Notes: generated from the sequence alone by a model not told the origin. Shown: positions 6,356 through 44,156, numbered from the stretch's first letter. The stretch is DNA of 64,000 nt from Endomicrobium sp. (GCA_031262585.1 JAISHK010000004.1:62001-126000); one strand, 5' to 3'. Numbers and translations: made by a program.

Positions 6356-8386
6356 TTATTTTCTTTTATTTTTAGATAAATTCTTACTAAATTTCATACT
6401 TTTAAGCTCAAGTATTTTATCTCTAAAAATAGTTGCAGATTCAAAATCAAGATCTTCTGCAGCTTTTTTCATTTTTAATTCTATTTCTTTTATTATTCCA
6501 CTAATATTTTTTGGCGTAATTTTACAACCAAACTGCTGTTGAGTAACTATATGAGAAATAGATTCTCGTTTTGATAAATTACTAAATTCGTCAAGCTCAT
6601 AAACTGCTTTAACTATTGTTTCAGGCTTAATATTATTTTTTTTGTTGTATTCAAGCTGCTTCTTTCTACGACGATTCATCTCGGTTAAAGCTTTCTGCAT
6701 TGAACCTGTTATAATATCAGCATAAAAAATAACGCGCCCATTAACGTTCCTTGCAGCTCTACCGCATATCTGAATCAGAGCAGATTCAGAACGTAAAAAA
6801 CCCTCTTTATCAGCATCTAAAACCGCCACTAAAGCAACTTCAGGAAGATCTAAACCTTCTCTTAAAAGATTAATGCCAACCAAAACATCAAATTTCCCAA
6901 GTCGTAAATTTTTAAGTATCTCTATTCTCGTTAAAGTATCTATTTCAGAATGTAAATATTCAACTTCAAACCTTTTTTCTTTTAAATATAATGACAAATC
7001 TTCTGCTGTTCTTTTTGTAAGAGTAATAACTAATGTTCTTTGCTTATTACTGATTGTTTTTTGTATTTCTTGAATTAAATCTTTTACTTGTCCATTAATA
7101 GGTCGTATAATTACTTCAGGATCAACTAATCCAGTTGGACGAATGATTAAATCTACTACATGTTTTTTACTTTTTTCTAATTCATAAAGTCCCGGCGTTG
7201 CAGACACCATCATAAACTTTTTTATAAGTTTATCAAATTCTTGAAATTTCAACGGTCTATTATCTAAAGCTGATGGAAGTCTAAATCCAAAATCTATAAG
7301 GGTTTGTTTTCTACTTCTATCACTTTCATACATGCTTTTTATCTGAGGAAGAGATATGTGAGATTCATCGATTATTACTAGAAAATCATCATTGTTTCGC
7401 AAAAAATAATCTATTAGTGTTGTAGGTCTTGTTCCTAAAGGACTACCTGACAAATGCATTGAATAATTTTCAACACCACTACAAAATCCCGTTTCTTTTA
7501 GCATTTCCATATCATATTTTGTTCGCTGATAAAGGCGTTGAGATTCAAGAAGTTTATTTTGAGATTTTAATATTCCAACTCGCTCATTTAACTCTTCTTC
7601 TATAGTTTTTAATGCATTATTAATTTTGTCCTTACTAGCAACAAAAAGTTTAGCTGGATAAATGTATGCTTTATTCTTTTTATCAATCACCTCTCCTGTT
7701 AATGGCTTAAATTCTTTTATGCTTTCTATCATATCACCATAAAATTCAATTTTTAAAGCTGTTTCAAGATAAGCTGGAAAAATTTCAACAGTATCGCCTT
7801 TTACTCTAAATTTTCCTCTTATAAACTCACTTTCATTTCTTTCATAGTGACTTGCAACAAGTTCAGCTAAAAGCTGTTTCATTGATTTTTCCTTGCCACA
7901 AATTATTACAACACACATGTTTTGATAATCTTTTGGAGAACCCAAATTATATATACACGATACCGAAGCAACAACAATAACATCTTTTCTTTCAAGAAGA
8001 GACGTAGTAGCTTTTAGACGAAGACTATCTATACGATCGTTTATTGATGCATCTTTTTCTATATACGTGTTACTAGACGGGATGTAGGCCTCAGGTTGAT
8101 AATAATCATAATAAGATATAAAGTATCCTATAGCATTTTTTGGAAAAAAAGCCTTAAATTCCGCGTAAGTTTGAGCAGCTAAAATTTTATTAGGTAATAT
8201 TACAAGAGTAGGTTGTTGCAACTTCTCAATAACATTGGCCATAACAAACGTTTTACCTGAACCTGTAACACCAAGCAAAACCTGCGAATTTTTATTATTC
8301 AAATAATTATTATACAACTTATTAATAGCTTGAGATTGATCACCTGCAGGCTGAAATTTAGATACTAATTTAAATTTACTTTCCAT
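6356..8386 (-). CDS. uvrB: Excinuclease ABC subunit B
   Basis: 676 aa; LLGVTGSGKTFVMANVI, YYDYYQPEAYIPSSNTYIEKDASIND, GINLLREGLDLPEVALVAVLDADKEGFLRS, C-terminal UVR motif. Confidence 0.98.
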   Translation of the reverse strand: MESKFKLVSKFQPAGDQSQAINKLYNNYLNNKNSQVLLGVTGSGKTFVMANVIEKLQQPTLVILPNKILAAQTYAEFKAFFPKNAIGYFISYYDYYQPEAYIPSSNTYIEKDASINDRIDSLRLKATTSLLERKDVIVVASVSCIYNLGSPKDYQNMCVVIICGKEKSMKQLLAELVASHYERNESEFIRGKFRVKGDTVEIFPAYLETALKIEFYGDMIESIKEFKPLTGEVIDKKNKAYIYPAKLFVASKDKINNALKTIEEELNERVGILKSQNKLLESQRLYQRTKYDMEMLKETGFCSGVENYSMHLSGSPLGTRPTTLIDYFLRNNDDFLVIIDESHISLPQIKSMYESDRSRKQTLIDFGFRLPSALDNRPLKFQEFDKLIKKFMMVSATPGLYELEKSKKHVVDLIIRPTGLVDPEVIIRPINGQVKDLIQEIQKTISNKQRTLVITLTKRTAEDLSLYLKEKRFEVEYLHSEIDTLTRIEILKNLRLGKFDVLVGINLLREGLDLPEVALVAVLDADKEGFLRSESALIQICGRAARNVNGRVIFYADIITGSMQKALTEMNRRRKKQLEYNKKNNIKPETIVKAVYELDEFSNLSKRESISHIVTQQQFGCKITPKNISGIIKEIELKMKKAAEDLDFESATIFRDKILELKSMKFSKNLSKNKRK

Positions 8387-8395
8387 AAAAATACT

Positions 8396-9130
8396 TTAAT
8401 TATATTCCTCTATTTTTTCTATCAGCTCATAATTTGTTTGATCTAGTTGTAAAGGAGTAATGGAAATATAACCTTTATCCACCATATCAACATCAGTTCC
8501 ACTACCTTTTTTCTCAAAGATATACCTTCCAGACAATTTATAAAGATAGTTCCCATTTTTATCTGTTATAGTATCAATATTTTCATTATACGCTCTTGTT
8601 CCCAAAGGAACTACTTTTATGCCTTTATAATCTTTTGGAATATTTATATTTAAACAAATATTTTTAAATCTCTTCTTTCTTTTCAGCAATTTTTCAACAA
8701 TATTTCTAGTAGCAGCTGCCGAGTGAGCATATTCAGTAGCATTCATTTCAGCTGCTGAAACAGCGATTGAAGAAATTCCCAGCATAGCACCTTCTCTTGC
8801 TGCACCCACAGTTCCAGAATAAATAACATCTTGACCAAGATTAGGGCATGTATTTATACCTGACACTACAAGATCTATTTTATTCTTCAAAAATGAGTAT
8901 AAACCATATTTTACACAATCTGCGGGGGTTCCACCTCTAATTATATAAAAATCTTTAGCTACCCTTTCAACCTTTTTATACTTATCAAGAGAAATGCCGT
9001 GGCCTGTTCCTGACATCTGTCTTACTGGAACAATAACATAAACTTTAGCAATTTCAGAAAGTTTTTTTATTAATGGACGAAGTCCAGGTCCTTTGATACC
9101 ATCATCATTTGAAATCAAAATTTTATACAT
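8396..9130 (-). CDS. surE: 5'/3'-nucleotidase SurE
   Basis: ILISNDDGIKGPGL...SGTGHGISL...VVSGINTCPNLGQDVIYSGTVGAAREGAMLGI. Confidence 0.97.
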   Translation of the reverse strand: MYKILISNDDGIKGPGLRPLIKKLSEIAKVYVIVPVRQMSGTGHGISLDKYKKVERVAKDFYIIRGGTPADCVKYGLYSFLKNKIDLVVSGINTCPNLGQDVIYSGTVGAAREGAMLGISSIAVSAAEMNATEYAHSAAATRNIVEKLLKRKKRFKNICLNINIPKDYKGIKVVPLGTRAYNENIDTITDKNGNYLYKLSGRYIFEKKGSGTDVDMVDKGYISITPLQLDQTNYELIEKIEEYN

Positions 9131-13826: not shown

Positions 13827-15227
13827 TTACCTTTCTTTTTCTAAAATATCTAACAATTCAATATAAATATTTTCAAGCCTCATACCTCTAGAACCTTTAA
13901 ATAAGAAAACAGAATTACTATCAACATCAATTCGTTTTAAATTTTCTATAAGTTTACAAGGATCTTTCGTATAAAAAATTCTTTTATTATTTATATTTTT
14001 TTTTGTATAAAAACTCATTTCACCTAATAAAGTTACAGAATTTATATTATGGAAATTATTAATAAATTTTCCAAGCTCTAAATGATAATATAAAGACTTA
14101 TCGCCAAGCTCAAGCATATCTCCAAGAACAAGATTAATTTTTTTGTCATTATAAGATTCTATTACAGTTCGTATAGCTTCTCTTACCGAGGAAGGATTAG
14201 CGTTATAGGCATCATTTATTAAAACAACTCCTTGAGATGTTATTAAAGTCTCCATCCTCATTTTTGGCAAAGTAAAACTCTCTATTCCCTTCTTTATATC
14301 CTCAAGAGAAAAGCCAAAACCAATTGCACAAGACGCTGCTGCCAAAGCATTGGCAACGTTAAACCGACCTTTTGATGGTATAGATATTTTAATACTATCT
14401 TCTTCATGAAAAATAGTAAAAACAGTTTTATCAGGATACAATTTCAAATTCTTTGCATAAACATCGGCAACAGAATCCAAAGCAAAAGTAATAAATTTAT
14501 GTCTGCTCATATCAGGGGCTATTCTTAAAAACTTATCATCATTATTTATAACTATAAAACCACTTTCTTTCACATTACTAAATAAAACTTTTTTCTCTTT
14601 GTAAACACCTTTAGGAGAAATAAAAGTCTTTAAGTGAGACTCTCCTATATTTGTAATAATACCGCAATCAGGTTTCAAAATATCAGTCAGTACTTCAACT
14701 TCACCATGTAAAGACGTTCCTATCTCAAAAACACCATATTTTGTATCTGAATTTAAATTAAATATCGAAAGAGGAAGTCCTATCCTATTATTAAAATTTC
14801 CACTATTTGAAACGGTCTTACCTTTTATATTCAAAATTGAATTTAACATTTCTTTTGTCGTAGTTTTTCCATTGGAACCTGTGATACCAACTACTTTTAC
14901 ATTTTGAAATTTAGTTTTGTATCTTTTGGCAAAATTTCCAAGAGCGGCAAGAGTATCTTTTACTTTAATTAATGCAGGTATTTTTTGAACATATTTCAAC
15001 AAATTAATATCATCTCTTGAATATACTACAGATGATGCACCCATTTTTATAGCTTCTTCTATAAAATCATGCCCATCATAATTATTTCCTTTTATAGCAA
15101 AATAAACTTCATCTTTTTTTATCACTCTTGAATCAATAGAAATTCCTTTTACTAAAAGACTTGGATCACCTATTATAAATTGACCATCTATAGCAACTAT
15201 CAATTCTTTAATATAAAAAGATTCCAT
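13827..15227 (-). CDS. murF: UDP-MurNAc-tripeptide--D-Ala-D-Ala ligase
   Basis: GITGSNGKTTTKEML, NFNNRIGLPLSI, INDAYNANPSSVREAI. Confidence 0.96.
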   Translation of the reverse strand: MESFYIKELIVAIDGQFIIGDPSLLVKGISIDSRVIKKDEVYFAIKGNNYDGHDFIEEAIKMGASSVVYSRDDINLLKYVQKIPALIKVKDTLAALGNFAKRYKTKFQNVKVVGITGSNGKTTTKEMLNSILNIKGKTVSNSGNFNNRIGLPLSIFNLNSDTKYGVFEIGTSLHGEVEVLTDILKPDCGIITNIGESHLKTFISPKGVYKEKKVLFSNVKESGFIVINNDDKFLRIAPDMSRHKFITFALDSVADVYAKNLKLYPDKTVFTIFHEEDSIKISIPSKGRFNVANALAAASCAIGFGFSLEDIKKGIESFTLPKMRMETLITSQGVVLINDAYNANPSSVREAIRTVIESYNDKKINLVLGDMLELGDKSLYYHLELGKFINNFHNINSVTLLGEMSFYTKKNINNKRIFYTKDPCKLIENLKRIDVDSNSVFLFKGSRGMRLENIYIELLDILEKER

Positions 15228-16759
15228 TAAAAAATAAACTCCTTTTGCTCCATTTCTTTTAATTTAGATTTTTTCTCTTCCTCTTTTAAAATTATATATT
15301 TATTGGCAATCTCAATGTCACTAAAATGCACTCTTTGGGTCCCTATAACTTGATACGTTTCATGTCCTTTCCCAGCAAGTAAAATAACATCACCTTTATT
15401 GGCCATCATAATCGCTTCTCTTATTGCATTTTCTCTATCAATTATAACTTTATAATTATTTCTATAAGTCTTTTTTATTCCTACTTCTATATCTAAAGCT
15501 ATATTATTGGGATCCTCGGTTCTTGGATTATCAGACGTTACAAAAACAAAATCACTCATTTCTACCGCTATTTTTCCCATCACAGGCCTTTTTGTTCTGT
15601 CTCTATCTCCACCACAACCAAAAACCGTAATAATTCTTTTAGGATGCATCTTTTTTAATGCACATAAAACATTTTTTAAAGCATCATTAGTATGTGCATA
15701 ATCCAAAATTACATCAAATCCAAAATTCTTTGTATCTATTTTTTCTAGTCTTCCTGGAACTTGTTTTGAAGCACTTAATCCTTCAGCTATTTTATTAAAA
15801 GAAATTCCATTGCAAATTGACACCGCACTTGCTGCTAAAGCATTATATATGTTATGCAATCCTATATGTTTTATATTAACTTTAGCTCTTTTATCACCAA
15901 ACAATAAATCAAATTTACCACCATTGCTTGTCATTTCAACATTTTCAGCTTTAAATTCTACTTCTTTATCTTCTATAGCATAAAGCTTTACTTCAGAATT
16001 TACTGTTACTTTAGAAAGTTTTTTGCCATATTTATCGTCAGCATTAATTATAGCATACTTTTTGTTTCTTTTAACGTCTGTTCGCGAACCAATAAAAAGC
16101 ATAGATTTAGCTTTAAAATAATTATTCATGGTTTTATGAAAATCTAAATGATCTTGCGTTAAATTTGTAAAAACAACAGTATCAAAATCTATTCCATAAA
16201 CTCTATGCAAACTCAAAGCATGTGAAGAAACTTCCATAACCAGATATTTAACACCGTTATCAATCATATCTCTCATAATTTTATAAATATCAGGCGATTG
16301 AGGTGTCGTATTAAGAGCACTTATAACATTCTCCTTATATCTATAGTTGATAGTACCTATAACACCACAATCTATACCAGCACCTGCAAATATGCTTTCA
16401 ATCATATAAGCAATAGTTGTTTTACCATTTGTACCTGTAATACCTATAATATTTAATTCTCTATCCGGATAGTTATAAAATTTTGCACAAAAAACAGCCA
16501 TAAATATAAAAATATTTTCAACTACTACTTGAACTGCAGAAATTAAATCGTATTTTAAATCAGTAATCACCACAGAAGCACCTTTCTTAATTGCTTCATT
16601 AATATATTTTCTACCATCAGTATTATGACCAGGAAGAGCAAAAAAAGCACAATCCTTGGAAATTGTTCTTGAATCATAAGAAATTCCAGTGACATTAACA
16701 TCATCATTACCAATTATAATTACATTAACATCAGATAAAATTTCTTTAAGTTTCATCAT
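15227..16759 (-). CDS. murE: UDP-MurNAc-L-Ala-D-Glu--diaminopimelate-type ligase
   Basis: GITGTNGKTTIAYMIESI, MEVSSHALSLHRV, TSDNPRTEDPN, LLAGKGHETYQ. Confidence 0.96.
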   Translation of the reverse strand: MMKLKEILSDVNVIIIGNDDVNVTGISYDSRTISKDCAFFALPGHNTDGRKYINEAIKKGASVVITDLKYDLISAVQVVVENIFIFMAVFCAKFYNYPDRELNIIGITGTNGKTTIAYMIESIFAGAGIDCGVIGTINYRYKENVISALNTTPQSPDIYKIMRDMIDNGVKYLVMEVSSHALSLHRVYGIDFDTVVFTNLTQDHLDFHKTMNNYFKAKSMLFIGSRTDVKRNKKYAIINADDKYGKKLSKVTVNSEVKLYAIEDKEVEFKAENVEMTSNGGKFDLLFGDKRAKVNIKHIGLHNIYNALAASAVSICNGISFNKIAEGLSASKQVPGRLEKIDTKNFGFDVILDYAHTNDALKNVLCALKKMHPKRIITVFGCGGDRDRTKRPVMGKIAVEMSDFVFVTSDNPRTEDPNNIALDIEVGIKKTYRNNYKVIIDRENAIREAIMMANKGDVILLAGKGHETYQVIGTQRVHFSDIEIANKYIILKEEEKKSKLKEMEQKEFIF

Positions 16760-35571: not shown

Positions 35572-38253
35572 TCAAATAAAAACATAAAAACACCATGTCC
35601 CTTCATTGTAACACCATAAAAAGTATCTGCAATCTACATCATACATTTCAATTTTATTAAAATCATTCTTAACTTCTTCATAATCTTTTAAAAAAAATTC
35701 GAATAATCTTTTCTCTAAATCGTTTTTTTGATACTCAAAATTCTTTAAATTAATTTGCAAATTATTCACCTCACTATTTAACTTATCAACCTCACTTCTC
35801 AAATCGTGCAATTGACTAACTTTACACCCAACATATCTTGCAAAAACCTTTTATTATTTAAAAAATTTGTATTTCAGTTTTTTTGATTTGTTCTTTACGA
35901 AGTTGCTGAATTTTTAGCGTTTCTATTTTCTAGGAAGCAAGTAACTCTAAAAATTTCTTATCGTTTTTTATAACTTTATTTTCATTATTGCATTTTTTTG
36001 TTTTATACTAGCAATATTATTTGCATTTGCAATATATTGTTGTCTTTTTTGCTTATTTTCCAGCTCTAAAACTTTTTTATCCAAAATACTTCCCGTCTGC
36101 ATCATTCTGAAGCAATACGTTCCTCTTTTTTGCTAATAAATATATTATCTTCTACAATTTTTAACTCTTTATTAAGCTTATTTTCTTCATTATTACAATC
36201 TATCAATTTTCTTGCAAAAACAGATATTTATGTCTACTATTTTTTCAGTAATATTTTTTATATTATTTTCCTTTTCTTTAATTTAAACATGCTTTTCTTC
36301 AATTTGCGTTTTTAATTTTACAAAACCAAAATTTAATCTATCTTTTTCAAAATACAAATTAATTTAAAGTTCATTTATCTGTCCTATTTCAGGATGCATT
36401 AAAATAATTTTTTACTTAAATTCCCAATTTTTTTGAAGTTTTTTTATTTATTCTTCAATTAGCCAGATTTTTCAAAAGATATTTCCCCTCCATTTTAAAC
36501 TATAGCATCTCCATAAATTTTGTTTGCAAATACAAAAGCTACACAACATTATAAAACAAATTATCTTTTCGTCCAAAAGACCATATTTTAAATATCATAT
36601 AAGTTCTGTATTATATCTCCTACTTGGCAATCCTACTTTAGAATTTTGATGATATGAATTCGAAATTTTAACAACAATTATAAAAGAAGTCTATTCATAC
36701 TATTTTTTCTAAAAACTTAATTGATTGTTCCGTTTGTCGTATTGTTTGACAAACAAAATAATTTAATTTCTCAGCTAGAGAGTTAAAGCTACAAGTTTTT
36801 CATTATCTTTATCAGTATTAATTAACTACTTATGGGATCTCTTGCCAAGCTACTCAAACCTTAACACAGCTCTTATAGAAATTTTTTACTGGATCCATTT
36901 TGATCAAATTCCTTAAAAATAGTTATATGAGAATTGTTTGAAGCAAAAGATTCTTGGTATTATAATAAAAAATTCATTATTTTTTTTCATTCTCAGAAAT
37001 AGCTTTATTTATCTCTTATTTTTTTACTTTAAAAAAATGTAACGATTTGTTTACATTAATAAAATCCATTTTAATAACAGCAATTTCATCATTTGTAAGT
37101 TCAAGGCCAGTGTCAAACCTTGTTATTATCTTTTGCAAAGAAGTCACGTCTGTGTCAAAATGTGGTTTTGCTGTTACAAAAGTGCTGCTTTTAAACTAAC
37201 TTTCCGATCTTTTCACGTTTCAAGTTCAGATATTTTTAAACATACAATAGCTTCTTTTAATACACAAATTCCATAAAATTAGTTTTTATTAAATCATATC
37301 GTTGCTCTTTTACCTTATATTCGTTCTCAAATTTGGCAATCTCTTCCTTCAAAGAACTATCATCTATATTTAAAGTAAGTTCTCGTGAAAAACTATCTTT
37401 TTCAGACTTTATTTTCTGTTCATGTTGCATTGCATATTACATTACTTGATCTGCAAAATCTACAGGCATTTTTATTTCACTTAAAGTCTTTATTCATATT
37501 TTACATACTGTTCACTTTTATCGTTTAACAACAACCTCACACCCTGCACTTCAGCATCAAGTTGAACTACAAGAACATTTATGGATTTAAATTCTTTTAC
37601 CTTAGATTCCAACTCAATTTTTATTCTTTTTATCTCTTTATCATCACAAAATATATTTTTAACTAAAGCTGCTATTTTATATTTTACCAACTCTTTCTGA
37701 TATTTTTTATATCGTTCTGTTTTCTTAACAGACGTATCTAAAACTGTCATTTGTCGTTTATGTTATAAAAACATCGGACAAACTAGGACATTATCTACCT
37801 CTATTTTTTTAAGCCTTCTTAATGTCTCTCTCTTCCTGATTTTATATTTTGACACTCCAACAACTCTTTTATATCTTTAAGTCTACATTGCACTTTATTA
37901 ACAAAATACTCACTTCACCCATACCTGAATAATCTTCTTGCTACAACAATCTCAGAATAACTTACTGGCAAAATATTTTGAGAATTATCAAAACTAAGAG
38001 AAACTTTCGCCATCCCTCAGTACTTTTGGTTTGGGGTTCACTAAATATCATTTCCTGCATATTTGAATTTCTCATTAACTTAGCTTTTTTTGTTCACACA
38101 AGGCAAACCAACCAGCGGCTAGAAATCCGATATTTTGGATTTACCACAACCCATTAGACCACATATTATACCAAAAATTTCAGGCTCAAAATTAAAAATC
38201 GTTCTATCAGCAAATGATTTAAAACCGCATATCTCAACTTTCTTTAAATACAT
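35572..38253 (-). pseudogene. smc: Decayed chromosome-segregation ATPase SMC
   Basis: Reverse-strand start MYLKKVEICGFKSFADRTIFNFEPEIFGIICGLMGCGKS; then AKLMRNSNMQEMIFSEP, SLSFDNSQNILPVSYSEIVVARRLFRYG*SEYFVNKVQCRLKDIKELL; multiple frameshifts/stops; coiled-coil fragments downstream (ORFs 37490-37750 and 35572-35811). Confidence 0.88.
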
Positions 38254-38784: not shown

Positions 38785-39903
38785 TTAAATATTAGAATCT
38801 CCATATATCGCATATTTCTTATAAATTCTACCATTCATCATTTCAGCAGTACGCTGCGTCATTATATTATCATCAAGAACCCAAGAAAGCTCACAATTTT
38901 TATATCCAATTTTTAAAGCATTTTTTAAACCCTTTTCATACATAACGGCTTCTATACCCTTATGTCTATACTCCTTGACAACTCCCATTATCATAAGTCT
39001 TAAGCTATCTATTTTTTTTCTATAATAAAAAAACTTAAAAATTCCAAAAGGTAGCAAACTCCCATTAAGTTTTTTTAGTACCTGATTATAATCCGGCAAA
39101 GAAATAAGTATACCTACAGGAACATCGCCTATAATAGCCATTATCACCATTTCAGGTTCTACTAAAAGCTTCAACTTTGAAGCTATTGCCTTAAACTCTT
39201 CGTTACTCCAAGGAACAAATCCCCAATTTTTTCCCCATGCTTTATTATATATTGACATTATACTTTTTAAATCTTCTTTAAACAGATCTTTACGAATATT
39301 TCTAATTTTTAACATTGGCATTTTCTTTTTAGTCATAGCCACAATTCTTTCTAATCTATCCACTCTAGAATCTTGCAAAACATCCATATTATAAGCATAA
39401 AGATCTTTTATTTTTTTCAAACCTGATTGTTCTGCAAGATTTAAATAATACTGAAAGGTATAAGGCATCATAAGACTTGGAGCAATATTGAAACCTTTCG
39501 ACAAAAAACCACACTCGTCATTAGAAGAAGGATTCATAGGACCAATCATTTTATATATCTTATTTTCTTTCAGCCAATTTTTTACAGATGAAAAAAGTTC
39601 TTTTGCTACTTTGATATCATCAATACATTCAAAAAAACCAAAAAAACCGCACCTATCATTATGAAAAGATATATAATTATAGTCTATTATTGCCGCAATC
39701 CTTCCAACAACTTTATTTTCATCATTGCATGCTAAAAAAAGTTGCTTTTTAGCATGCATCCAAAAAGGATTCTTATTCCCAAGTTTTGCCATCTCCTCTG
39801 AAACCAAGGGTGGAACCCATGGACTTACTTTTGAATAAATTTTCCACGGGAAACGCACAAACTGTTTTAACTGTCTCTGATCAGTCACTTTAATTATTTT
39901 CAT
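38785..39903 (-). CDS. GNAT-fold acyltransferase-like protein; candidate bacterial ceramide synthase-like (bCerS) by context
   Basis: 372 aa; FPWKIYSKVSPWVPPLVSEE, VVGRIAAIIDYNY, LMIMGVVKEYRHKGIEAVMYEKG; 28 bp downstream of the Spt-like gene. Confidence 0.6.
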   Translation of the reverse strand: MKIIKVTDQRQLKQFVRFPWKIYSKVSPWVPPLVSEEMAKLGNKNPFWMHAKKQLFLACNDENKVVGRIAAIIDYNYISFHNDRCGFFGFFECIDDIKVAKELFSSVKNWLKENKIYKMIGPMNPSSNDECGFLSKGFNIAPSLMMPYTFQYYLNLAEQSGLKKIKDLYAYNMDVLQDSRVDRLERIVAMTKKKMPMLKIRNIRKDLFKEDLKSIMSIYNKAWGKNWGFVPWSNEEFKAIASKLKLLVEPEMVIMAIIGDVPVGILISLPDYNQVLKKLNGSLLPFGIFKFFYYRKKIDSLRLMIMGVVKEYRHKGIEAVMYEKGLKNALKIGYKNCELSWVLDDNIMTQRTAEMMNGRIYKKYAIYGDSNI

Positions 39904-39931
39904 CTCATCATCTCACTTAACTCTTATGACA

Positions 39932-41122
39932 TTAGGGAACTATCACTCCTAATTGTTTCCCAACTTTCTCAAACTTTTCAAGAATAAAATTCAAATGAGC
40001 ATCAGTATGAGTAGCCATATAACTTGTCCTTATTATAGACTGTCCTTCAGGAACTGCAGGAGTTACAACTGGAGAAGCAAACACTCCTTCATCAAAAAGC
40101 ATTCTCCACATTTTAAATGCAACCATATCGCTTCCCACTGTTAAAGGAATGATAGGCGATTGTGAATGACCTACATTATATCCCATAGATTTAAAAGCTT
40201 CTTTCATTTTACTTGCAGTATTCATAAGATTTCTTCTTCTCTCAGGCTCAGTGATAATCAAATCTAAAGCAACATCTATTGCACCAACACATGCCGGAGG
40301 AAGACTTGCAGTAAAAATTATAGTCCTTGCACTATGTTTAATATAATCAATAACTTTTGACTTACTTGCAATAAAACCACCTATTGATGCTAAGGATTTA
40401 GAAGCTGTAGCCATCAATACATCAACATTATCTTCCATATTAAAATGCTCGCCCACTCCCCTTCCATTGACACCTAATACACCCAAAGAATGCGCCTCAT
40501 CAACAAAAACCTTTGCCCCATATTTTTTAGCAAGTCTTGATATTTCTGGAAAATTTGCAATGTCACCTTCCATGCTAAAAATTCCATCAATTACAATAAG
40601 CATACCATTACCTTTATGCTTAATAAGCTGTCTTTCTAAATCAGACATGTCATTATGTCTAAATCTTACCATCTCTCCAAAAGATAGACGACAACCATCT
40701 ATAATTGAAGCATGATCTAATTTATCTGTAATCAAAATTTCGCCTTTACCAACCAAACATGAAAGAGAACCGAGATTTGAATGATGTCCAGTGGTAAAAA
40801 GAATCGATTCCTCTTTACCTACGAATTTAGCAAATTTTTTTTCTACTTTTTCATGTAAATCATTAGTACCATTTAAAAATCTTGAACCAGTACAAGATGT
40901 TCCATATTTTTTTACTGCATTTATAGAAGCTTCTATTACTTTAGGATGATTTGCAAGGCCAAGATAATTATTTGAACAAACAACAACTTTTTTAGTCCCA
41001 TTAACTATAATTTCTGGACCTTGTTCAGATTCAACTCTATGAAAATATGGATAAAAACCACTACTTCTTAATTTATCAGCGGCAACAAAATTAAAACATT
41101 TATCAAAAATATCTGAATTCAT
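39932..41122 (-). CDS. Alpha-oxoamine synthase, serine palmitoyltransferase-like
   Basis: 396 aa PLP enzyme; SNNYLGLANHPKV, GTSCTGSRFLNGTNDLHEKVE, DHASIIDGCRLSFGEMVRFRHNDMSDLE, DGIFSMEGDIANFPEI, VDEAHSLGVLGVNGRGVGEHF, TASKSLASIGGF; wording closer to remembered Sphingobacterium-type SPT than to BioF. Confidence 0.75.
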   Translation of the reverse strand: MNSDIFDKCFNFVAADKLRSSGFYPYFHRVESEQGPEIIVNGTKKVVVCSNNYLGLANHPKVIEASINAVKKYGTSCTGSRFLNGTNDLHEKVEKKFAKFVGKEESILFTTGHHSNLGSLSCLVGKGEILITDKLDHASIIDGCRLSFGEMVRFRHNDMSDLERQLIKHKGNGMLIVIDGIFSMEGDIANFPEISRLAKKYGAKVFVDEAHSLGVLGVNGRGVGEHFNMEDNVDVLMATASKSLASIGGFIASKSKVIDYIKHSARTIIFTASLPPACVGAIDVALDLIITEPERRRNLMNTASKMKEAFKSMGYNVGHSQSPIIPLTVGSDMVAFKMWRMLFDEGVFASPVVTPAVPEGQSIIRTSYMATHTDAHLNFILEKFEKVGKQLGVIVP

Positions 41123-41147
41123 TTATATTATCCTCTTTTTATAATAA

Positions 41148-42149
41148 TTAAAAAAAATTATTTATTAAATACCAATTATACGTTACTTTAGAAGCAACTT
41201 CAAGACATGTAAACTTAATATTTAGATCATTTTCTGCTGGTTTAGTTTCAGCTATCCAATACTTTTGAAGTATTTCTGAAACCTTTTGATTATTCAATAT
41301 AAAAGATTTTTTTGTTACAATAGATATCGCTCCTGCCATAAAACCAACAAATTTAAAAACAAAATCTGGAATTGGTAAAGGAATTGTGTTTACATTAGCT
41401 ACATAAGATATAATTCTACCTACGTCATACCATGTATAACTTTGAGGATTTGCGAGATAATAAATATTATTATCACTTTTTTTATTCTGCAAACATACAA
41501 ACGTAACTTTTGCTACATCTTTTACATAAACAAGTTGAAGAAATTTTTTTGTTATAGTAAACGGTCTTAAATGTCTATTTATTAACTTAAAAAATATATA
41601 AACATCTTTATCACGCGGCCCATAAATGACCGCGGGTCTCAAAATTGTATACGGTATTTTTCCCAAAAATAATTTTCTAATCTCAGATTCGGCAATAAAT
41701 TTACTCAGTCCATAATCAGAAATTGGAGTTTCAATGTCATTTATTTTCTTAAAATTTTTAGTATTTGAAGGCCCCATAGCTGCTTGAGAAGAAATAAATA
41801 TAAATTTTTGTAATTTACGATTATTATTTAAAATTGCCAAACATAGATTTCTAGTATTTTCAACATTTACTTTAAAATATTCTTCTTTAGATGTTGCTCG
41901 CAAAACTCCAGCACAATGAACTACAGCATCAACATCTTTAACTATCTCTTCTAAAAATTCTATATTATTTAAATCACCATACCTATAGTCAATAGGCAAA
42001 TTCTTTATCCATCTTAAATTTGACATTTTTCTTACAACACATATAACATGATAATTTTCTTCTAATAATGTTTCAACTATATGACTTCCAACAAAACCAC
42101 TCGCACCAGTAACTAAAATTTTCAACATTAAAGTCCTCATATACCACAC
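41148..42149 (-). CDS. Extended SDR, NAD(P)-dependent epimerase/dehydratase-like; candidate 3-ketosphinganine reductase (CerR-like) by context
   Basis: MLKILVTGASGFVGSHIVETLLEENYHVICVVRKMSNLRW, VVHCAGVLRATSKEEYFKVNVENTRNL, DYGLSKFIAE (YxxxK). Confidence 0.7.
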   Translation of the reverse strand: MWYMRTLMLKILVTGASGFVGSHIVETLLEENYHVICVVRKMSNLRWIKNLPIDYRYGDLNNIEFLEEIVKDVDAVVHCAGVLRATSKEEYFKVNVENTRNLCLAILNNNRKLQKFIFISSQAAMGPSNTKNFKKINDIETPISDYGLSKFIAESEIRKLFLGKIPYTILRPAVIYGPRDKDVYIFFKLINRHLRPFTITKKFLQLVYVKDVAKVTFVCLQNKKSDNNIYYLANPQSYTWYDVGRIISYVANVNTIPLPIPDFVFKFVGFMAGAISIVTKKSFILNNQKVSEILQKYWIAETKPAENDLNIKFTCLEVASKVTYNWYLINNFF

Positions 42150-43559
42150 AATTTAAGTTTATTACAAAAACGTTTAAATTAACAAAAAATATATGCAACT
42201 CCTCAAATATTATTAACATACACCAAAATATTATTGTTTTTTGAAATAACAAATAGAAGAAAATCAACCACATCTTAAACAAATATTACTATAGACCATT
42301 TACATTTTATACCATTTCACACTATTATTTACGTCAATTAAGATTAATTTTGATTTATTCTTTTTCATTAATAAAATTTAACACAATCTCAAAATCATCA
42401 ATTTTAGGCATACCATTACTCACTATAGGTTTCTATAAGAATTTTTGTCAATAATAAACTTTTAAAATTTAGTTTACACTAAAACCATAATATATTATCA
42501 AGTTCTTTAATCTAGCATTTACATTTATCCAATTTCTTTATTTATTTTACAAACGTCTTTATAGATATGACATATTATTTATTACAACTTTCATTATATT
42601 CATCTTCCATTTCCTCCTTTTATAAACATATATTTACTTAATTGTCATTTAATAGTCTATCATTTACTATAAAAATTCATTTATAATCTGCATATTAATA
42701 ATACCATTCTTTCTTTAAAATGCTCAAAAAAACTATATTCTCTTTTCGCGTATTGAAACTTTTATATATTTATTATTTAAATCTTTTACTTAACTTTTTT
42801 GATATTTTCACTTTTATACAACAATACCACACTATATGGTCTTTGCTTAACTCCATTAAAGAACAATTTGTCACACAATGAACACCCATTCTAGCAATAT
42901 ATAATATCTATCAAATACATTTAAGATATTTTGTTCCAAATTATATTTTAAATATTTTAACAGTTTTTTTATTTAAATCATCAACAATATAAAGACACAG
43001 TCTTGCCAAGTCATCTTTCTCGACAACTTTTGCAACAACAGACACTATTTATTTCTCATGAAACCCTAAATTATATATTCTATTTTGAATTTTCATTGTC
43101 AAATTGCTCTTCAGAATAATTATAAATCACGACATTTTTACTTATAAATAACCCACCAAATTTCTCACGATTTATTATATAATTCATATTTTCATTTTTA
43201 CGAGCTTAATCTTTTCGGCAATACAAAAAAACTTACAAAAATATAACATCAGAACTATCAGATTAAACTTTTTGTGCAAAATACACATAGTACAAAGATT
43301 TTAATATGCGGCACAAATTTACTTATTTCAGTAAGAAGTTTCATCACAAATTGAGTAACGCAACACAACAAGATTGTCATGAAAATTCATTTTTTATACA
43401 TTTTTAAATTTTAAACATTCATTTCCAGCAATAGCTTTATATCTGGACATCTCTCTGTCATCTTACAAAACTTTCCTTATATGAATTAATAGCTTCCAAT
43501 ACGTTCTTATTGACCATTCTTTAACATGAGATGAACTCACAATAACATTTCATACATAA

Positions 43560-43850
43560 TATACAATTACTACAATCTTTCTAAACTGCATCATTCTCAT
43601 TTTTCTCATCAGATCTATAAGACAAATTTTTCATAATAGCATCAAAAACAAGTCGCAACATATATTTTACAGCTTTTACATTTAGATATATCTATAAGAT
43701 TTATCATTAATTACACTTATAGCTTCAAACTTACACCCACTAACACATGAATTTACTATAACTTTACTTGACATAAATCATTATATATTCTGTCCTGCAA
43801 CATCACTTCCTTACACACTATTTCAATAAATGCAAGAGCTTTTCATTAGT
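43560..43850 (-). pseudogene. Decayed 4Fe-4S cluster protein (ferredoxin / [FeFe]-hydrogenase-like)
   Basis: Reverse strand, with frameshift: MSSKVIVNSCVSGCKFEAISVINDKSY(ID)ISKCKSCKIYVATC...; Cys spacing resembles CxxC ferredoxin repeats. Confidence 0.4.
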
Positions 43851-44156
43851 TTACTTAACATTTGATTTTTTTACTTATTGGGTATAATTCAATAATTTCA
43901 TCATCTTTTATAAAAAAACCTAGTCCCGTTATAATAAGTTATTTAAGAATTACAAGCTCTTTGTACACACAATATTTATAAAGAATACCAAAACCTTTTT
44001 GACACATTTTACCTACTTTCTCAAAAATTTTAGATAAAAACGTCGTTACGCTTCTCTCAAAAACTTCTTTAATTAAATGTAATTTCACTCATTACCAACT
44101 TTTTATTACAACCTCCTACAAAAATTTTTTCATCCAGACAAACATAATACTTTATA

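Follow-up and report, generated by a model that had tools for sequence, protein, structure and literature searches.

A likely ceramide-backbone operon retained in an Endomicrobium genome that has lost lipid A genes

The DNA stretch analysed here (the window, 64,000 nucleotides) corresponds to positions 62001-126000 of contig C4 of an Endomicrobium sp. genome, whose assembly (936,649 bases in 11 contigs) is 83.5% complete. Its minus strand carries three tightly spaced genes, as a preliminary description of the same DNA had pointed out; their open reading frames (ORFs) are all intact. The first gene encodes an extended SDR resembling the reductase CerR (41148-42149, 333 aa when read from GTG 42149). 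It is followed after 25 bp by a gene for an alpha-oxoamine synthase of the serine palmitoyltransferase (SPT) kind (39932-41122, 396 aa, with PLP lysine K242 in the sequence S-K-S) and, after a further 28 bp, by a gene for a tandem-GNAT N-acyltransferase assigned to the bCerS/CerS, YghO family (38785-39903, 372 aa). The gene boundaries first proposed hold for the synthase and GNAT genes. For the SDR, initiation at ATG 42128 (41148-42128, 326 aa) is more likely than at GTG 42149, because an AGGA motif lies just 5' of this codon and the SDR genes of relatives have the same start. Given the base composition of the window, stop-free frames as long as the three ORFs have a chance probability of ~1e-11 to 1e-13 per gene, and all three products are conserved at the protein level in relatives. 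A fab cluster is found on the same strand ~5 kb upstream of the operon. From sequence comparisons, we consider it probable, at roughly 85%, that the three genes form a vertically inherited and functional bacterial operon for synthesis of the ceramide backbone.

The operon is bracketed by heavily decayed DNA. The decay on both sides was recognized in the preliminary description and could be attributed to individual genes by comparison with congeners, in which intact copies occupy the same place. The upstream flank holds the relic of a [FeFe]-hydrogenase gene (~43083-44085, minus strand) and the downstream flank that of an SMC gene (~35644-38253, minus strand), both outside the pathway. A gene for a fused aldehyde/alcohol dehydrogenase (AdhE-type), present at this place in relatives, is gone in this genome. 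Relics on both flanks, together with an SPT relic in one congener (G024) and the joint absence of the three genes from several others, could mean that the operon is intact by recent chance only and is drifting toward decay as its neighbours did. This is very improbable in view of the median pairwise dN/dS across the genus, where the frames are open (0.11 for the SPT, 0.14 for the GNAT and 0.22 for the SDR gene), of the retention of all three genes in 25 of the 37 genus genomes, and of the conservation of every checked key active-site residue in the SPT of the window. Purifying selection acts on all three operon genes, in agreement with the earlier argument that their intactness implies selection.

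The NCBIfam model that scores highest with the synthase is SerpalmtaseCFB (507 bits), ahead of the BioF/Kbl-type models (370-389 bits). The score is under the cut-off of that model (640 bits), and no SPT equivalog in NCBIfam reaches its curated cut-off with the protein; these cut-offs are naming thresholds and the label SPT-like is therefore used here. The best match in the PDB is the Sphingobacterium multivorum SPT (390 bits), the next alpha-oxoamine synthase scoring 288 bits, and identity to SPT-like proteins of Prevotella and Parabacteroides is 45-49%. Both the closest characterised SPT and the closest family model are thus of the Bacteroidota/delta type (S. multivorum, Parabacteroides, Prevotella). 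Besides its score under the SerpalmtaseCFB cut-off, the synthase differs from this type in its PLP motif, A-T-A-S-K-S instead of G-T-F-S-K-S, in which G and F are both replaced by A. The Parabacteroides SPT gene, unlike the one described here, has no annotated SDR or GNAT gene as a neighbour. Aligned with the S. multivorum SPT, the synthase retains the active-site and PLP-motif residues N51, G79, S80, H137, S183, T239, S241, K242 and S243. L-serine is contacted in the S. multivorum enzyme by Asn52, Ser81 and His138 (numbering of PMC10196870), and the L-serine- and PLP-contact residues of that structure are conserved in the synthase. The SPTs of relatives in the order and class carry a basic, aromatic C-terminal extension of ~45 residues, absent in the genus, that may be a membrane-binding helix.

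The preliminary description had preferred an SPT to BioF (AONS) or Kbl and had proposed a phylogeny with characterised members of the three groups. A maximum-likelihood tree of 59 rows unites all 45 of its SPT-type rows in a single group with support 100/100, and a constraint joining the class with Kbl is rejected by the AU test (p=2.6e-5). All SPT references have a serine directly after the PLP lysine (K+1); the Kbl, BioF and CFAT-like proteins compared all lack it. The synthase and BioF/Kbl do share a fold and the PLP superfamily. The genome moreover keeps bioD and bioA intact next to a bioF that is a relic (~8250-8750 of G000:C9:152000-167000, minus strand), so that biotin synthesis appears to be broken and the synthase could in principle substitute for the missing enzyme; the operon would then serve biotin metabolism or, with a Kbl, threonine metabolism or an unrelated pathway. 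The preliminary description had held that clustering within BioF/Kbl combined with a biotin locus elsewhere would speak against an SPT: the locus exists, its bioF being a separate, decayed gene, and the clustering was not found. At least 14 congeners carry both the SPT-like gene and a separate BioF-like gene (~29-34% identity), the latter adjoining bioA and bioD in four of the four loci examined. The synthase itself adjoins neither biotin genes nor tdh, and its partners across phyla are GNAT and SDR genes. Tree, motif and separate bioF loci leave hardly any room for a BioF or Kbl identity, which we reject. The tree, the conserved residues, the S-K-S motif and the separate BioF genes support the conclusion that the synthase is SPT-like and is not the missing BioF of this genome.

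An SPT-like enzyme might use another amino acid, in which case the operon would yield not canonical ceramide but a relative of it: with alanine or glycine a 1-deoxyceramide, with cysteate a sulfonolipid. SPTs accept alanine and glycine with low efficiency (PMC10196870), 1-deoxysphingolipids have been reported from the Black Sea (PMC11334938), and the A-T-A-S-K-S motif departs from G-T-F-S-K-S. We regard such a product as unlikely, the conserved L-serine contacts described above arguing for serine. For the sulfonolipid branch, the comparison was made with a CFAT-like protein of Legionella lytica, encoded beside a phosphosulfolactate synthase gene. In a quick tree this protein falls outside the main SPT group, and it has A-K-A at the PLP motif; both features disfavour a CFAT identity of the synthase.

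No Pfam or NCBIfam model reached its cut-off with the GNAT protein taken alone, and a sequence search of the PDB with it found no close solved relative. At a lenient threshold PF00583 was matched in 19 of 19 aligned relatives. The AlphaFold model (pLDDT 88.8) gives Foldseek matches to tandem-repeat GNAT enzymes with E values down to 9e-14. At the sequence level the protein aligns over ~99% of its length with an N-acyltransferase of Sphingomonas parapaucimobilis (34% identity, BLASTP E=9e-66, hhalign E=2.7e-65), encoded ~6 kb from spt-acp-SDR genes, and with YghO of E. coli BL21(DE3) (33% identity, ~99% coverage, BLASTP E=4e-61, hhalign E=1.7e-69), whose gene adjoins those for an acyl-AMP ligase, an SDR, an ACP and an annotated spt (BLASTP E values are computed for a database of 1e8 letters). 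The hhalign probability with these spt-linked N-acyltransferases is 100%. The yghO gene of E. coli B is the counterpart of Caulobacter CC_1154 (PMC9386255), which is cerS, the ceramide synthase gene (PMC11324152). Placement of the GNAT protein in the bCerS/CerS, YghO family is thus supported by homology, its tie to CC_1154 running via YghO in the literature. The proposal of a bCerS-like protein at this locus was well founded, and no other single line of evidence speaks as strongly for the ceramide idea as this family link.

The SDR has Epimerase and 3Beta_HSD matches and the motifs GASGFVG and YGLSK, as in an extended SDR with a Rossmann motif. It aligns over its length with spt-adjacent SDRs of Sphingomonas (hhalign E 8.5e-34) and Roseomonas (5.9e-31) and shares with the alphaproteobacterial proteins the top family model and 25-29% identity. 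The E values are ~1e-18 to 1e-20, with BLASTP values of 9e-18 and 3e-20 against the two reference CerR proteins compared. They fall short of the 1e-30 that serves as criterion in PMC11334938, where a different query set was used. In a tree, the operon SDRs and the CerR references lie near each other, but the outgroups are so distant, on very long branches, that the grouping is not firm. The assignment as CerR-like, already made in the preliminary description, is upheld by the full-length alignment and the common family model, the match itself being weak. The link is weaker than for the other two proteins and is consistent with the conserved gene position and the tree.

By homology, we infer the substrates, products and step order of the pathway as follows. 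The SPT-like enzyme would form 3-oxosphinganine (3-ketodihydrosphingosine) by condensation of L-serine and a fatty acyl thioester; N-acylation of the long-chain base would fall to the tandem-GNAT protein and reduction of the 3-keto group to the SDR, yielding (dihydro)ceramide. The order of N-acylation and 3-keto reduction is debated even in Caulobacter, where localisation data point to acylation as the earlier step (PMC11087976); BT_0972 of Bacteroides thetaiotaomicron reduces 3-ketosphinganine directly (PMC9278070). By homology, the three genes correspond in activity to spt, cerR and cerS of Caulobacter crescentus (CC_1162, CC_1164 and CC_1154), which stand for an SPT, an epimerase-type SDR and a GNAT N-acyltransferase. 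In Rhodobacteria, a dedicated ACP and an acyl-ACP synthetase serve the SPT, and cerS belongs to another operon; the present operon is single and compact, carries no dedicated ACP, acyl-ACP synthetase or ligase, and encodes an SPT of the Bacteroidota/delta type. A genome search for headgroup genes gave two CDP-alcohol phosphatidyltransferase matches and DAGK_cat matches below cut-off only; no ceramide kinase of the PF00781 type was above cut-off, and no headgroup path was identified among these matches.

The gene order SDR-SPT-GNAT recurs throughout the order and the class, and SPT-GNAT pairs are present in further classes of the phylum. Among the best 80 GNAT loci in GTDB genomes, an SPT gene lies within 2.5 kb in 55 and an SDR gene within 5 kb in 45; their phyla include Ignavibacteriota, Nitrospirota, Zixiibacteriota, Myxococcota, Gemmatimonadota and Planctomycetota. 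Since the same order recurs in the class and in many phyla, the operon is considered to be inherited and to belong to a cluster type already known. Spt-like proteins have been found in environmental MAGs of 38 phyla, with Spt-bCerS-CerR clusters that have the same three-gene neighbourhood as the operon (PMC11334938). Those clusters come from environmental MAGs, in contrast to the reduced-genome protist-endosymbiont lineage studied here, and the main text of that work does not mention Elusimicrobiota. A special acquisition by the symbiont is ruled out by the class-wide distribution of the operon and the phylum-wide distribution of SPT-GNAT pairs. For this lineage the operon is no exception: comparative data indicate that it is ancestral to the class, was retained under selection in most lineages and was lost in some. 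The pathway appears to descend from free-living ancestors.

Endomicrobium-type bacteria are a lineage living inside termite-gut protists. The named close relatives of this genome are Candidatus Endomicrobiellum and Endomicrobium species, and further out Endomicrobiales and Elusimicrobiota; this taxonomy supports the earlier view that the DNA belongs to an endosymbiont. Most of the genus genomes that lack the complete set of three genes have none of them, and the presence of SPT and SDR genes is strongly associated (Fisher p=1.4e-8). The SPT relic of G024 (contig C11, ~106014-106271) has an intact SDR gene on one side and an intact GNAT gene on the other; this congener's genome is 99% complete and keeps lpxC. 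Because some congeners have lost the operon and G024 retains an SPT relic, the operon is not essential throughout the genus.

All genomes of the genus with a completeness of 90% or more and a contamination of 5% or less carry lpxC, which is missing here. At the bamA locus of relatives lie lpxD, an lpxC-fabZ fusion, lpxA, lpxI and gnnA/B-like genes. In this genome bamA is intact, and all that remains after it is the FabZ part of the LpxC-FabZ fusion, with traces of lpxC (G000:C2:121000-140500, 14718-15940, minus strand). LpxA and LpxD were found nowhere in the 83.5% complete assembly. Because of this incompleteness, the loss of lipid A synthesis is called from the read-through bamA-fabZ locus and not from absence alone. 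Two congeners (G006 and G028) have the same lpx loss and kept the ceramide operon. On the tree of the operon proteins three separate lpx losses are needed, of which at least two are forced by strong branches. LPS genes are known to be missing in many Endomicrobiellum and LptD in the whole family, in a study where sphingolipids are unmentioned (PMC11257099). The three-gene cluster itself is already known from many phyla; what is new is that this genome has lost lpxA, lpxC and lpxD while keeping bamA and the ceramide operon.

Sphingomonas has a glycosphingolipid in place of LPS. In Caulobacter without LPS, the sphingolipid becomes essential (PMC10331486). Lipid A-less Caulobacter, dependent on an anionic sphingolipid, and Sphingomonas thus combine ceramide genes and an outer membrane with the lack of lipid A, as does this genome, judged for the membrane by its bamA. 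The role of the sphingolipid in those bacteria was shown by experiment; in this genome the parallel is one of gene content. Ceramide would most likely serve as an envelope lipid, possibly as an outer-leaflet lipid in place of lipid A; its membrane location and the replacement are put forward as a hypothesis only. We also suggest, tentatively and at less than even odds, that the endosymbiont may have an outer membrane lacking lipid A, with an outer leaflet built on ceramide lipids from the operon, and that ceramide may have pre-adapted the lineage to repeated, independent LPS loss in the course of its intracellular life.

The interest of the operon lies in its setting, a protist-endosymbiont lineage whose genomes are strongly reduced and to which sphingolipid synthesis is likely extended, and in its occurrence alongside the loss of lipid A. 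Should ceramides be made, they would offer a concrete, testable answer to the make-up of the outer membrane after that loss, and they might also bring the symbiont into chemical contact with its protist host.

A strict rule by which bamA requires either lipid A or ceramide is contradicted by a congener of 0.4 Mb that shares the loss at the bamA locus, keeps bamA and fabZ and has neither lipid A nor ceramide genes (G032:C1:180000-196000). Complementarity of lipid A loss and ceramide retention likewise found no support: among the 32 genomes of the genus that have bamA and a known status, the counts are 21/7/3/1 (Fisher p=1), and the losses of lipid A and of the ceramide genes are statistically independent across this set. 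Two tandem lpxA-like genes were observed at L231 (10782-12316), and the same arrangement is found in G026.
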